Assembly (NCBI RefSeq): GCF_003952345.1 | Contig: NZ_CP034433.1 | Coordinates: forward strand, 1,984,001 to 2,048,000 | DNA length: 64,000 bases | Reading direction: 5' to 3' | Source of the DNA: Iodobacter ciconiae | Lineage (GTDB): Bacteria > Pseudomonadota > Gammaproteobacteria > Burkholderiales > Chitinibacteraceae | Shown here: positions 21,639-27,533 of the stretch, in pieces | Layout of the letters: each line of letters begins with the position of its first letter | Numbering within the stretch: position 1 is the stretch's first letter | Made by a program: the position numbers and the translations under genes | The notes under the pieces: model-generated | Databases searched by the model: none | Seen by the model: the letters and a program-made list of their open reading frames with translations, nothing else | What the model was told of the DNA's origin: nothing

Positions 21639-22478
21639 ATGTATCGTCTGATTATCCAAGCCCCGGAAGTCGCCACACAAAACCTGAAGCAACTGGCCCG
21701 TCTATCTGGCGCACACAGTATTGAAGCCATTCACCAGCAGGCGTTTCGTTTACAAGGCGCTGATATTGCAAATGAAGAAGCTGTTGCCGACTTTTGCGAA
21801 TCCAATCAGCTTGATTTTGCGTTTATCCCGGAAGACACCCGCGTACAGGATATTGGCCTTGTAGTCATGGATATGGATTCCACACTGATTACCATTGAAT
21901 GCATCGATGAAATTGCCGATATGCAGGGCATTAAAGCAGACATATCGGCCATTACCGCCAGCGCCATGCGCGGCGAAATCGATTTCAAGGAAAGCCTTAG
22001 CCGCCGCGTAGCACTTTTGGCAGGCCTTGATGAAAGCGCATTAGAGCGCGTTTATTCCGAGCGGCTTAAACTCATGGCAGGCGCAGAAGCCATGCTCAAA
22101 GGCTTTCATGATGCAGGAGCCAAAACACTTTTGATTTCTGGCGGATTCACTTTTTTTACCGAAAAACTGCAAGCCAGGCTGGGACTTACACGTACCATTG
22201 CCAATATTTTAGAAATTGAAAATGGCAAACTGACAGGCAAAGTGATCGGCAATATTGTGGATGCAGAGCGCAAAAAAACCGAGCTGATCAAATACCGCAC
22301 CAAGCTTGGCTTGCGTGTTGATCAGGTTGTTGCAATGGGAGACGGGGCCAACGATTTACCAATGCTAAAAGAAGCAGGCTTTGGCGTAGCCTGCCATGCC
22401 AAACCGCTTGTGCAACGCGAAGCGCCATATTGTATTAATCAAGTGGGATTAGACGGCGTGCTGAATTACTTTATTTAA
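21639..22478 (+). CDS. serB: Phosphoserine phosphatase
   Basis: A 279-residue HAD-superfamily enzyme that releases serine from phosphoserine, the last step of serine synthesis. An N-terminal ~70-residue regulatory/ACT-like region is followed by the catalytic DMDST (nucleophile Asp in VVMDMDSTLITIE), the SGGFTFF serine/threonine motif and the metal-binding GDGANDLPML. An in-frame upstream start at 21582 would add 19 residues that run across repeat family B, so I chose the ATG at 21639. No good ribosome-binding site precedes it. The gene is convergent with the small secreted-protein gene downstream. Confidence 0.95.
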   Translation: MYRLIIQAPEVATQNLKQLARLSGAHSIEAIHQQAFRLQGADIANEEAVADFCESNQLDFAFIPEDTRVQDIGLVVMDMDSTLITIECIDEIADMQGIKADISAITASAMRGEIDFKESLSRRVALLAGLDESALERVYSERLKLMAGAEAMLKGFHDAGAKTLLISGGFTFFTEKLQARLGLTRTIANILEIENGKLTGKVIGNIVDAERKKTELIKYRTKLGLRVDQVVAMGDGANDLPMLKEAGFGVACHAKPLVQREAPYCINQVGLDGVLNYFI

Positions 22479-22530: not shown

Positions 22531-22555
22531 TGGGCAAAGCGTTTTACTTTGCCCA
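22531..22555. terminator. Hairpin between convergent genes serB and the 22.6-kb gene
   Basis: TGGGCAAAG (22531-22539) and CTTTGCCCA (22547-22555) form a perfect nine-bp stem with a seven-nt loop. It lies between two converging genes and could stop transcription from either side, though neither side has a strong T-run. Confidence 0.5.
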
Positions 22556-22580: not shown

Positions 22581-23141
22581 TCACTCACACCGCCCCTTGC
22601 GCGGCAAATAACGCAACCAGTCGGCCTTGATTTGCGCTTCTTGCGCCATGCCAGATACCACTTTAGATGCATCACGCGTTGCCAGCAGGCGCAAGCACCA
22701 GCGTGCCCCTGCCTGATCTTTTATCCGCATTTTGCCCGTAAATGGCTGGCTTTCATCACCCTGCACCAATAAAGCCTTACCGTCTTTAAAACCCAGCCGC
22801 CAGCCTTCATGCACCGCCGTCCCCGCATAACCACCTGCAATCAACTCCAGCCACAGCCGATCTCCCTTCAGTAAGCGCAAACGACTGACCGGCCCGGCTG
22901 GGTGTGGCGCACGCTCTGTCACCAGTTGCGTGCCTTTAGGCAGGGCGCGCCATGCCAGTGGCCAGGGCGACACCACGGCTTCGCCCTCTGCCAGCTTAAA
23001 ATACGCCACCCCCTCTTTGAGCCTGGCCGATTCCACTTCACCAGAAAGGGGTTTTATCGCGCTTGCCCCACTAATCTGCAGCACGGCCCCTTGGGCAACC
23101 CCTGCCAAACACAGCAGTGCCCCCCCCCCCTTAGCGCGCAC
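22581..23141 (-). CDS. Small secreted protein of unknown function; 11-G tract at its 5' end
   Basis: No family is recognised. The frame from the GTG at 23141 encodes 186 residues beginning MRAKGGGALLCLAGVAQG. This resembles a short signal peptide, so the product is probably exported. The rest is a beta-rich, basic, globular-looking sequence (GGYAGTAVHEGWRLGFKDGK in the middle) with no membrane segments. The start overlaps the end of the upstream metzincin lipoprotein by 11 bases, implying translational coupling. Codons 4-8 contain a run of eleven G (23120-23130), so a one-base slip during replication would abolish the frame. In the given sequence the frame is open. A TTG at 23159 is an alternative start. 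Confidence 0.6.
   Translation of the reverse strand: MRAKGGGALLCLAGVAQGAVLQISGASAIKPLSGEVESARLKEGVAYFKLAEGEAVVSPWPLAWRALPKGTQLVTERAPHPAGPVSRLRLLKGDRLWLELIAGGYAGTAVHEGWRLGFKDGKALLVQGDESQPFTGKMRIKDQAGARWCLRLLATRDASKVVSGMAQEAQIKADWLRYLPRKGRCE
23120..23130 (-). repeat. Homopolymer tract of eleven G (coding strand)
   Basis: Eleven consecutive C on the plus strand, directly after the TAA (23131-23133) of the lipoprotein gene and inside the first codons of the downstream small-protein gene. It is the longest homopolymer I noticed in the window. Tracts of this length in Neisseriales and other host-associated bacteria commonly mediate phase variation. Confidence 0.9.
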
Positions 23142-25041
23142 GGCGGCGTATCGCAGCAAAGAAGGCAGCAGAAGGTTTGGCCTCTACCGACCAGCGCTGC
23201 TTATCATTCAAAATTGGATTAATCGCCACTTTTGCACTCCTTTGCATTGATGCACCGCTATTACCACTCTCCACCCGGGCAAAAGCCAGGTTTAAATTAG
23301 CCCAGTCATTATGGTCACGCAAAACCTGCTTGTTACCATCATCGTTAATATCTAAAGCATAATTAACAGTGTTCTGCTTATTATCTAAATTCCAATCTGC
23401 ATATACTCCTGCCAACCTACCCCGGCCAATTAGATTAGCCTCATTCAAACTATTTTCATCAAGGAAACTACCACTACCATCAGAATAATCAATACGGAAA
23501 CGACTATCGCATGGGCCACCTTCAAGCTTACATAATGAGCCCCAATCAAAACCATTAGCTTCTTTGGCAAAGAAATAACGCTCCATACCCGATATTGATT
23601 TTGGTGTTGAACCCAAACCGTTTAACTGGTAAAGATAATTCATTACACTATAATAGTTAGGCTTATTATTAATATCTTCATTACCACCATGCTTCAATCC
23701 TAGGTTATGCCCCAGTTCATGCATAATAGTGCTTGCCTGATAATTAATTAATTGATTCATTTCCTCTGGTGAATCTGCATTCAAACCCCAATTACCTAAG
23801 GTAACAATAATATCATTGCCCGCAATTTCGGCATAACCCGAATAACTCGCTTTGCCATCAAGTTCTTGTGAATTACCCATCAATAAGTAATGAAAAACCT
23901 GCTTACGACGAATATCCATACTCAGATTTTTATAATCATAAATGGATGCACAATCTGCTAATGACTCTATTCCTAAACAAGCTTGATAAGCTACTTCATT
24001 CCTTGAATTTAAACGGCTGCCACCCAGATTAAAGTCTGCAGGGTTAAATTTTACATTGTATAAATTACCCGCATCAAAATGCACCGCAACATGATTTAAT
24101 TTAAAAGCATCTACTACTTTTTGCAGTGCTTCTTTCGTTGGAATAATCCCCAAATCTGTCGATTTCATATGATCAATTTGGATAAAAATATCTGGCTGAT
24201 TCGCCCTGGCCCCCATCGCATAATAATCAATCCCCCCAAATGTACCACCTGCCACTTCGGCATAATCAGGAATACCATCCTTATCATTATCTACGGCATT
24301 TTCGGGCACATCATTAGGGCCACCCGGGGTAGAAAACGGTACCACTGTCCAATCCTGTGCACTACGCGTATTCGCTTTAAGCGGCCCCAGACGCACCAAA
24401 GAATGGCCATAGTCCCAAACAAAAGAAGGAATGCTTACAGCACTTACCCCTTCCCAAGCGCCTGCAGTCAACGGCTGAGCCTGGTTATTGCCAAAGCGAA
24501 CAAAATCAAGCGTTACACCACCTTTAACTAATTCAACAGCACCGCTACTTCCCCAATCAGGCACGCTGAACAGATTATTCACGTAAGCGATTTGATTTGC
24601 GCTCTGCATGGCATCATCGCTTTTTCCGGCCACAATAAAATATGCTCCCGGCTTGATCACGACTGTTTTTGGTAAATCAAACGATGTCCAGTTTGACCAA
24701 AGCGAGGTACGTAAACTGACCCCATCGAGAGATACATCCTGGGCACCGTTATTATAAATCTCTAACCAAGCGCCTTTAGCAGAACCATAATTACTCGATA
24801 CTTCGCTGATGAGTAATGCTGAATCCAAAACAGGCTCCGGGGTGGGTGTCGGGATGGGCGGTAAAGTAGGCGCAGGGGTTGGAACAGTCGTCGGCACCGA
24901 TGTGGGAGTTAATGTAGGTACAGACGTCGCAACAGGGCTACCCGTATCTCCCCCACCACCTCCGCCACAAGCCACTAATATGACGCTCAAACTTAAGCAT
25001 GCCAAACGCGCACCGTACTGCTGAAAATGATCATTATTCAT
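23131..25041 (-). CDS. Lipoprotein with lamin-tail-like domain and metzincin-type metalloprotease motif (paralog 1)
   Basis: A 636-residue exported lipoprotein. The lipobox LVAC places the lipidated cysteine at residue 25, followed by six glycines and a Thr/Pro/Val-rich linker to about residue 70. Residues about 75-200 (LLISEVSSNYGSAKGAWLEIYN, VSLDGVSL) look like a lamin-tail (LTD) fold. A DNDKDGIPDYAE calcium-binding-type loop follows near residue 255. The catalytic domain has HELGHNLGLKH at 441-451, the full HExxHxxGxxH zinc motif, then a Met-turn-like YYSVMNY. It is probably an outer-membrane or surface protease. A frameshifted paralog lies upstream and a small secreted gene overlaps its end. 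Substrate unknown. Confidence 0.82.
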   Translation of the reverse strand: MNNDHFQQYGARLACLSLSVILVACGGGGGGDTGSPVATSVPTLTPTSVPTTVPTPAPTLPPIPTPTPEPVLDSALLISEVSSNYGSAKGAWLEIYNNGAQDVSLDGVSLRTSLWSNWTSFDLPKTVVIKPGAYFIVAGKSDDAMQSANQIAYVNNLFSVPDWGSSGAVELVKGGVTLDFVRFGNNQAQPLTAGAWEGVSAVSIPSFVWDYGHSLVRLGPLKANTRSAQDWTVVPFSTPGGPNDVPENAVDNDKDGIPDYAEVAGGTFGGIDYYAMGARANQPDIFIQIDHMKSTDLGIIPTKEALQKVVDAFKLNHVAVHFDAGNLYNVKFNPADFNLGGSRLNSRNEVAYQACLGIESLADCASIYDYKNLSMDIRRKQVFHYLLMGNSQELDGKASYSGYAEIAGNDIIVTLGNWGLNADSPEEMNQLINYQASTIMHELGHNLGLKHGGNEDINNKPNYYSVMNYLYQLNGLGSTPKSISGMERYFFAKEANGFDWGSLCKLEGGPCDSRFRIDYSDGSGSFLDENSLNEANLIGRGRLAGVYADWNLDNKQNTVNYALDINDDGNKQVLRDHNDWANLNLAFARVESGNSGASMQRSAKVAINPILNDKQRWSVEAKPSAAFFAAIRRRAR

Positions 25042-25560: not shown

Positions 25561-27533
25561 TTACTTTGCGTGTCCTTTAAGACTACCAATCAATTGAATC
25601 AGCCCTAAAGAAGGAGGCTGCTCAATTGCGGCCGGTTGCCTGTCCTGACTAAGCACATGAGAGGGTAAAAAAACGCGTCTTGATAATAAGCTAACACCAT
25701 TATTGCCTGTGTTCTGCCGCGCAAAAGGCAGGTAGAGATTTGCCCAGTCGTTATAATCGCTTAATATCGAAAAACTGGAATCTTGATTAATATCCTTTAT
25801 ATAAACACTGGCATTTTGTGCACCATTGGTATTCCAGTCTGCGTAAGATCCATTATTACTTCCCCGGCCAATAATGGCAGATTCAAGCAAGCTGCTTTCA
25901 TTTAAACTAATACCACTGCCATCGGAGTAATCCATTTTATAATTTGTACTACAGGGACTGGCATCAATATTACATATATTTCCCCAGCTAAAACCCAGTG
26001 CATTATTATTAAGATAATAACGCTGTGCTGCACTATTTGTTTTTGGATCAGACCCCAACCCCGGTAATTGATAGAGGTAATTCATTATGCTGTAATAATT
26101 AGGCTTATAATTACTGGGTTCATTACCACCATGTTCTAGGCTAAAATTGTGGCCTAGCTCATGCATAATGGTGCTGGCCTGATAATTAAGCAGCAAATTA
26201 GCATTACTGCCTGATCTACTGGATAAGCCCCAGCTCCCTAATGTCACCATTGAATCATTGCCATTGATTTCTGCCAAACCTGAAGATCCGGCAGAGCCAT
26301 CTGACTCCTGTGAATTAGCCATAAGTAAATAGTGAAATATCGTTTTACGCCGGATATCCAAACTTGCTGATTTATAACTATATAAAGAAGCGCAGCCTGT
26401 TTTGCTATCTAAAGTCAAACATCTGGCATAGCTCACTGCATTAGCTCCCCCCCAAGCCCGCCGCCCAGATTAAACAAAGCAGGATTAAAATTTGCAGCAT
26501 AAAGACTGCCGGTATCAAAATGAATGCTAAAGCCCCGGCTGGCAAATATATCGACTACTTTTTGCAAAGCTTCTTTGCGCGGGGTGATACCGGCATCGCT
26601 GGAAAGCATATGATCAACCTGCACAAAGATATCGCGTTGCCTGACTCTGGCACCCATCGCAAATAGATCCAGCCCTGCAAATGTGCCTCCCGCTACTTCT
26701 GCCGTATCTGGAATACCATCGTTATCGCTATCTGCCGCTGTAGCGGGCACATCATTGCGCCCGCCAGGAGTGGCAAAAGGAACCTGCAACCAGTCTGCTG
26801 CGCTGCCACTATTCGCTTGCAGTGGAAAAGGCCTGACAAGAGACTGACTATACGAAGTCGCTGGCATGGCAGCTACATTCAAGCCTTGCCACACGCTGCT
26901 GCTAAGCGGTGCCTGGCTGCTATTGCCAAAGCGGATAAAATCCAAAGTTGCCCCTGCAAAAGTAAGCTCTACAGCACCATTGGAATCCCAAAAAGGCACT
27001 GCCTCACCATTGCTGAGATAAGCCACCTGGCTGTTATTACTCACGCTATCGTCGATTTTGGCGATCACCACAAAATAGCCCCCGGCTGCCAGTGTGACGG
27101 CAGGCAGACTAAAACTGACTGGCGTACTGGACACCGTAAATGGCCAGGAGCGTAAACCAGAACGGGTACGCAGGCTTACTCCACTAAGCGACACAGCGCG
27201 GCTACCTGGGTTATGGATTTCCAGCCAAGCCCCTGCATTGGTCGAATCATTACTTGAAACTTCACTAATTAATAGGCCGGCACTGGCTGCTGTCACCGAC
27301 TCGGGGACAGGGGCAGGACTAGGCACAGGGATAGGTACTAAGGTAGGAATCAAAGAGGGGCTAGGGCTGGAGCTAGGTAAAAAGCTAGGCACAGCCGTAG
27401 CCAGTGGCGCTAAGGTCGGTACAGTAATGGGAGATTGGCTTACAGCGGTTGTGGATTCTCCCGCCCCGCCGCCGCCACAGGCTGTTAATACAACTGTAAG
27501 CAACAAGATAGACACATACATAGTTGCTTTCAT
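25561..27533 (-). pseudogene. Metzincin-type lipoprotein, paralog 2, split by a frameshift in a seven-G tract
   Basis: The 5' part (27533 to 26433, 366 codons) encodes a lipoprotein signal with cysteine 19 (LTAC), a Gly run, Pro/Val-rich linker, lamin-tail-like region and SDNDGIPDTAE loop. It then terminates at FNLGGGLGGELMQ. The 3' part (to 25561) continues in another frame with HELGHNFSLEHGG and YYSIMNY. At the junction the coding strand has seven G (26447-26453). Eight G would give FNLGGGLGGGANAVSYARCL, exactly as long as the matching segment of paralog 1, and a full product of about 657 residues. The gene is therefore either phase-variable and OFF here, newly inactivated, or affected by a sequencing error. 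The zinc motif has Ser in place of the usual Gly. Confidence 0.82.

Follow-up and report, generated by a model that had tools for sequence, protein, structure and literature searches.

An eleven-G tract at the start of a small secreted-protein gene overlapping a metzincin gene in Iodobacter ciconiae: a candidate slippage-prone locus

Introduction

In Neisseria, a genus that we take to share its order, the Neisseriales, with Iodobacter, the poly-G tract of pilC lies in the signal-peptide region. Tract lengths of pilC differ from strain to strain and within passaged cultures, and pilC1 of N. gonorrhoeae strain FA1090 carries G11 (PMC5320596). Because commensal Neisseria except N. lactamica hold few poly-G tracts (1-7; PMC5953494) and because, in the meningococcus, where switching was assayed from G5 to G13, the longest tracts (above 10) lacked the expected highest frequencies (PMC4085013), poly-G switching is not general even in Neisseria.

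Here we analyse a window of 64,000 nucleotides of Iodobacter ciconiae, the whole stretch of DNA under study, in which eleven G stand at the start of a small secreted-protein gene that overlaps a metalloprotease gene. In its layout, the locus agrees with the translational phase variation described for pilC (PMC5320596; PMC5953494). It also resembles the poly(A) tract of Listeria inlA, a 5′ homopolymer whose frameshift leads to a very short product, although the run here is of G rather than A, and inlA variation has been measured whereas the present tract is known from one genome (PMC2831843). Among the papers searched, one contains both Iodobacter and phase variation (PMC12566833), and there the latter phrase stands only within a reference title. 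As in pilC1 and pilC2, a poly-G run occupies the 5′ part of a gene for an exported protein and the frame closes unless the length fits; unlike pilC, whose lengths vary, the tract is known from a single genome, and the small protein is unrelated.

The gene pair itself invites a different set of comparisons. CpaA of Acinetobacter is a secreted metalloprotease with a dedicated chaperone partner, CpaB, and the present pair resembles it, by description only, as a secreted metalloprotease with a dedicated partner. Metzincin inhibitors such as BamI or AprI are not known to be phase-variable. Like Mep72/BamI and AprA/AprI of Pseudomonas, the locus places a secreted metzincin beside a partner gene in one operon; bamI, however, lies upstream of mep72, whereas here the partner follows the protease (PMC4334185). 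Unlike those partners, the small protein is covered by no Pfam or NCBIfam model.

Results and discussion

The length of the G tract closes or opens the frame of the small gene

Read directly, positions 23120-23130 are eleven C on the plus strand, that is, eleven G on the coding strand, immediately 3′ of the protease stop codon TAA (23131-23133). From 23141, the frame of the small gene reads GTG CGC GCT AAG GGG GGG GGG GCA. With at least 9 G, the tract belongs to the hypermutable-length class and falls within the 5′ coding region. The earlier note, made from the sequence alone, had described eleven G in codons 4-8 right after the upstream stop, in a frame that 11 G (also 8 or 14) keep open and other lengths close. 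The position proved exact, and recomputation gave the same frames: lengths of 8, 11 and 14 G leave the small frame open, while 9, 10, 12 and 13 G lead to a stop after 22-29 codons. The sequenced state is thus ON. The location within a presumed signal peptide, placed by eye at about residues 1-18, is likewise supported. As the protease stop precedes the tract, slippage cannot touch the protease, and this further part of the earlier note is supported as well. Coordinates are collected in Table 1.

Table 1. Positions of the features discussed, numbered along the window
Feature	Position	Strand	Description
Small secreted-protein gene	22581..23141	-	186 aa; GTG start at 23141; predicted all-beta mature part
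G11 homopolymer	23120..23130	-	Inside small-gene codons 4-8; no G run of the genome is longer
Gene overlap, 11 nt	23131..23141	-	Protease 3′ end / small-gene GTG start
Metzincin-type metalloprotease	23131..25041	-	636 aa; Lamin Tail Domain; lipobox-like N terminus (by eye)
Paralogous Lamin-Tail-Domain protease, frame-broken	25561..27533	-	ORFs 26433-27533 and 25561-26436
G7 run at paralog frame break	26447..26453	-	From sequence and alignment of relatives
Inverted repeat GGGCAAAG...CTTTGCCC	22532..22554	.	Intergenic, 3′ of the small gene; the convergent neighbour ends at 22478

The small gene starts upstream of the tract

A true start codon downstream of the tract had been named in the earlier note as an outcome that would undo its reading. 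The start lies upstream instead, because the GTG at 23141 and the 11-base overlap are kept in all eight Iodobacter-group loci with the pair (the present locus and seven congeners). Deposited or predicted starts in ten homologues match the GTG position, the homologous proteins span 184-187 aa, and ten close homologues begin V/M-R-x-K/D/S-W or nearly so. Two other candidates were rejected. A start downstream of the tract, with TAAGGGGG as ribosome-binding site, is at odds with the conserved upstream GTG and signal-peptide beginning, and downstream in-frame starts would lose most of the signal peptide; the TTG at 23159 proposed by the gene caller (prediction P0001, 192 aa) occurs in only four of the eight loci. 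By eye, no Shine-Dalgarno-like sequence precedes the GTG at 23141, and translational coupling of the small gene to the protease through the overlap is therefore inferred.

On the Kyte-Doolittle scale, the signal peptide with the G tract falls inside the range of ten relatives; on a second hydrophobicity scale, it is the second weakest of eleven. Beyond the 3′ end of the gene, the inverted repeat listed in Table 1 may be a terminator.

The small protein is probably a dedicated partner of the protease

The translation of the larger gene contains the zinc motif HExxHxxGxxH, as HELGHNLGLKH, and matches PF05548 (Peptidase_M11) in Pfam with 22.7 bits against a cut-off of 21. At E up to 1e-40, 17 of the 41 genomes searched held a homologue of the protease; the small protein had homologues in 14 (E up to 0.001), seven of the eight congeners among them. 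All 14 genomes with the small protein also hold the protease, which occurs alone in three (G009, G018 and G019), and none of the 24 protease-free genomes holds the small protein. Across 15 of 15 loci, the protease gene lies directly upstream of the small gene, overlapping it or within about 40 bases. Plasmid records gave no match.

No model in Pfam (E up to 1) or NCBIfam (E up to 0.1) matched the small protein, and this includes the known serralysin-inhibitor family (AprI/Inh) at the same limits. A profile of 23 sequences found at least 21 proteins among the best 7994 candidates scored, with named members from Iodobacter, Chitinibacter and Chitinilyticum. AlphaFold predicts an all-beta structure with high confidence (pLDDT 85.5, pTM 0.80; values below 50 over most of the signal peptide), and comparison of this model with other structures gave no convincing structural relative. 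A C-terminal cysteine is nearly invariant in the family, and most members carry a second cysteine beside a tryptophan near residue 148, either before or after it (L012 has neither); the two may form a disulphide. The small protein is probably a dedicated all-beta secreted partner of the protease and, by analogy with the described pairs, would most likely serve as its periplasmic chaperone or inhibitor.

As an observation in its own right, these proteins (L009-L015 and window positions 22581-23141) make up an unnamed all-beta secreted family paired with a Lamin-Tail-Domain metzincin.

The tract was found in one genome only and the gene is functional

A protein search placed a single member of the species on one contig, that is, in one genome. 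Related strains had been put forward in the earlier note as a check, and here the comparison with congeners went against a conserved tract: it is not kept at the orthologous place in any of the seven congeners holding the gene pair (0/7) and was found in the window only. Its closest three relatives (L002-L004) read GCT GAC TGG GTT TGG GCC, equal in length to the GCT AAG GGG GGG GGG GCA found here, and the other four read ACT AAG TGG CTG at the tract position. Compared with the closest relatives, W-V-W at the start of the signal-peptide hydrophobic core has thus become G-G-G.

For the mature part of the small protein, dN/dS between the window and seven relatives was 0.060-0.115, and 0.053-0.148 among the relatives themselves; the protease gave 0.091-0.101 against three relatives. 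Since these low values resemble those between relatives, the small gene is under purifying selection (dN/dS of about 0.1) and functional in this lineage, as would be expected of a gene that is ON most of the time.

Orthologous long G runs were also sought elsewhere and rejected: 14 loci with runs of at least 11 G in G004-G007, among the matches listed, were set against 21 other tract loci of the present genome and showed no matching tracts. Sequence was shared in the flanks only, e.g. in a stretch shortly 3′ of the runs in L028 and L051. The sole case of matching tracts among the compared loci, L045 and L047, is a within-genome duplicate. Eight of the relatives' 14 tract loci, among the matches listed, have no reading frame of at least 90 codons across the run.

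Long G runs are close to expectation and tolerated in the genome

Expected counts come from Markov models (orders 1-5) for which the window, tract included, served as training sequence, and were scaled to the 3.88-Mb genome. Within the window, 0.007-0.024 positions of 11 G are expected, and the tract is locally striking. Positions of 8 G number five, four of them inside the tract, against 2.08 expected, a count matched in 13 of 100 dinucleotide shuffles. Genome-wide, the single 11-G position observed compares with 0.4-1.5 expected and the 32 positions of 9 G with 9-25, about 1.3-3.6 times expectation, so that long G runs are at most in mild excess; 7-G positions number 319. Eight congeners hold between 15 and 48 positions of 9 G each, which makes the count of 32 ordinary for the genus.

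The genome has 22 runs of at least 9 G (13 of 9, eight of 10 and the one of 11). All of them were inspected, and at least ten fall inside an open frame of some length or border on one. The thymidylate kinase gene tmk, for instance, carries an in-frame G10 encoding the Gly-Gly-Gly of YAYQGGGRG (L040/L067, G000:C1:3772987-3773685), for which mixed codons are used in all eight congeners. Named by Pfam, genes resembling lnt (apolipoprotein N-acyltransferase), moaA (radical SAM), luxC and flgT contain a G9 across which the frame stays open, and an ApeP-like dehydratase gene has a G10 beside its stop. With a G10 in the frame of tmk, a long G run in this genome cannot on its own be read as phase variation; the G10 and the open-frame G9 runs together mean that long G runs are tolerated in housekeeping genes.

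Two general causes of G runs were rejected. Both mutS and mutL are intact in this genome and in the four congeners searched, so that no mutator background is evident and loss of mismatch repair is ruled out. A shift of codon use towards GGG is only slight: at conserved glycines, GGG counts in the window and two relatives were 103 v 95 and 54 v 42, from ORF pairs that were not curated.

Frame breaks at other G runs

A paralog of the protease, situated upstream of the pair, is broken in frame at a G7 run (Table 1), where three aligned relatives have interrupted G-rich sequence. A second protease copy is uninterrupted in all seven congeners with the pair, sometimes elsewhere in the genome and with orthology not shown for each. 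For the two halves of the paralog, dN/dS between the window and two relatives was 0.066-0.079. The break is either recent, because dN/dS is low on both sides of it, or a base-calling error.

Broken frames were compared across the window with an overlap filter and a 50% identity limit, which reduced 26 ORFs to 19 rows for G005 and 13 to nine for G007. Window genes were unbroken in 18 of 19 rows and nine of nine, respectively, the sole broken row, in the comparison with G005, being an antisense ORF at the paralog. Among the rows filtered out is the paralogous protease, whose best segment most likely fell on protease 1; its break is taken from the alignment with relatives and from the second copies in congeners described above.

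Elsewhere in the genome, a G9 lies where the frame of a large unnamed protein changes (L022, G000:C1:223000-225200, locus 1129-1137). In G004, the only one of eight congeners to hold a homologue, a frame of 1386 codons is open at this place, and the gene is a candidate for a phase-OFF state. As the G7 of the paralog and this G9 coincide with frame breaks, G-run frameshifting in the present genome is plausible, on single-genome snapshots in which base-calling error is possible.

A proposed reading, a recently formed slippage-prone tract, and its alternatives

By its anatomy, the locus is a candidate poly-G translational phase-variable locus. The earlier note had gone further and called it a classic slippage switch; of this, the frame logic and the start upstream of the tract stand, and an established switch does not, given a tract absent from seven of seven congeners, a single 11-G run near the chance expectation and a G10 in tmk. 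We see an even chance that a slippage-prone G11, recently formed in one lineage, should give occasional OFF cells that lack the partner and keep the protease. On this account, the tract would have arisen recently in one lineage of the Iodobacter group, replacing the start of the signal-peptide hydrophobic core. The run is expected to be unstable, and replication slippage by one or two G would close the frame after 22-29 codons. A culture would then throw OFF cells in which the protease is made and the partner is absent, and these could revert by further slippage. The account presumes a useful rate of slippage and a partner with an effect on the protease, as its chaperone or inhibitor. A stronger version, in which slippage of the tract operates as a partner-only switch, uncoupling the protease from its all-beta partner within the overlapping operon and yielding a clonal mix of chaperoned or inhibited and unaccompanied protease, strikes us as doubtful.

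The competing readings are not fully exclusive of one another. The tract could have drifted to pure G within a G-rich stretch, purifying selection keeping the frame and slippage being a nuisance. Such neutral drift is possible, if on the unlikely side: 9-G positions reach only about 1.3-3.6 times the Markov expectation and 11-G positions about one, mixed glycine codons likewise became G10 in tmk (mixed in eight of eight congeners), GGG is slightly commoner at conserved glycines (103 v 95; 54 v 42), and dN/dS of the small gene is low. The change in tmk was synonymous, however, whereas here W-V-W became G-G-G, a replacement that purifying selection would be expected to oppose in a signal peptide. 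However they arose, 11 G in a row should be unstable. Selection might instead have favoured mixtures of ON and OFF cells, making the locus a contingency locus for partner-only phase variation of the protease pair. The 5′ position, the signal peptide and the secreted product all suit such a role, as do a frame kept despite the replacement of W-V-W and an adjacent paralog broken at a G run. We nevertheless consider it improbable, since the tract occurs in one species only, runs show no clear excess in number or length, and no tract position is common to the 21 loci of this genome and the 14 of its relatives, among the matches listed. Evidence of selection for switching was not found in the one genome of the species and its congeners.

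Incipient decay, with the signal peptide degrading in a lineage that is losing the protease system, would account for a paralog broken here while second copies are uninterrupted in seven of seven congeners with the pair, for a genome of 3.88 Mb that is smaller than those of eight congeners (4.0-5.1 Mb), and for a signal peptide that ranks second weakest of 11 on one scale. We lend it little credence: dN/dS of 0.060-0.115 for the small gene, the protease and both paralog halves bears no sign of relaxation, and the Kyte-Doolittle value of the signal peptide lies within the range of ten relatives. Homopolymers are a common error of several sequencing platforms, and another frame break at a G run lies in the adjacent paralog; an assembly or base-calling error in the length or composition of the tract is nonetheless very improbable, as 11 G happens to be in frame, window genes are unbroken in 18 of 19 (G005) and nine of nine (G007) rows, and the frames of tmk-, lnt-, moaA-, luxC- and flgT-like genes stay open across their G10 or G9 runs. 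Equally slim is the prospect that transcription, rather than replication, slips on the run, giving a fixed mix of in-frame and out-of-frame mRNAs from unchanged DNA and so tuning the partner-to-protease ratio. The tract does lie in the mRNA right after the protease stop, and a run of this length is sufficient in principle; RNA polymerase, however, slips less on G runs than on A or T runs.

Should the recently formed tract switch, an environmental genus of the Neisseriales would hold a poly-G contingency locus caught soon after birth, and the proposed partner rather than the protease would be the variable component. The seven congeners, which represent the state without the tract, would then open the birth of a phase-variable tract to study. 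Even without switching, the locus points to an unnamed family paired with a Lamin-Tail-Domain metzincin, and the case illustrates that a lone G run proves little as long as strains are not compared.

Strand and placement of G runs

Across 20 samples of this genome (L080-L099), each of 20 kb, runs of G favoured the G-rich, presumed leading strand. The ratio of the G-rich to the other strand was 1.07 for single G, 1.75 for runs of 4, 4.6 for 6 and 7.0 for 7, and 2.5 for 8 G (5 against 2). Nineteen of the 22 runs of at least 9 G lie on the strand marked as G-rich by the skew of the nearest sample. One G10 is directly followed by the start codon ATG of a gene for an Hpt-domain (CheA-like) protein and so occupies the ribosome-binding position (L024, G000:C1:746900-749000, locus 1068-1077), where a change in length would alter the spacing.
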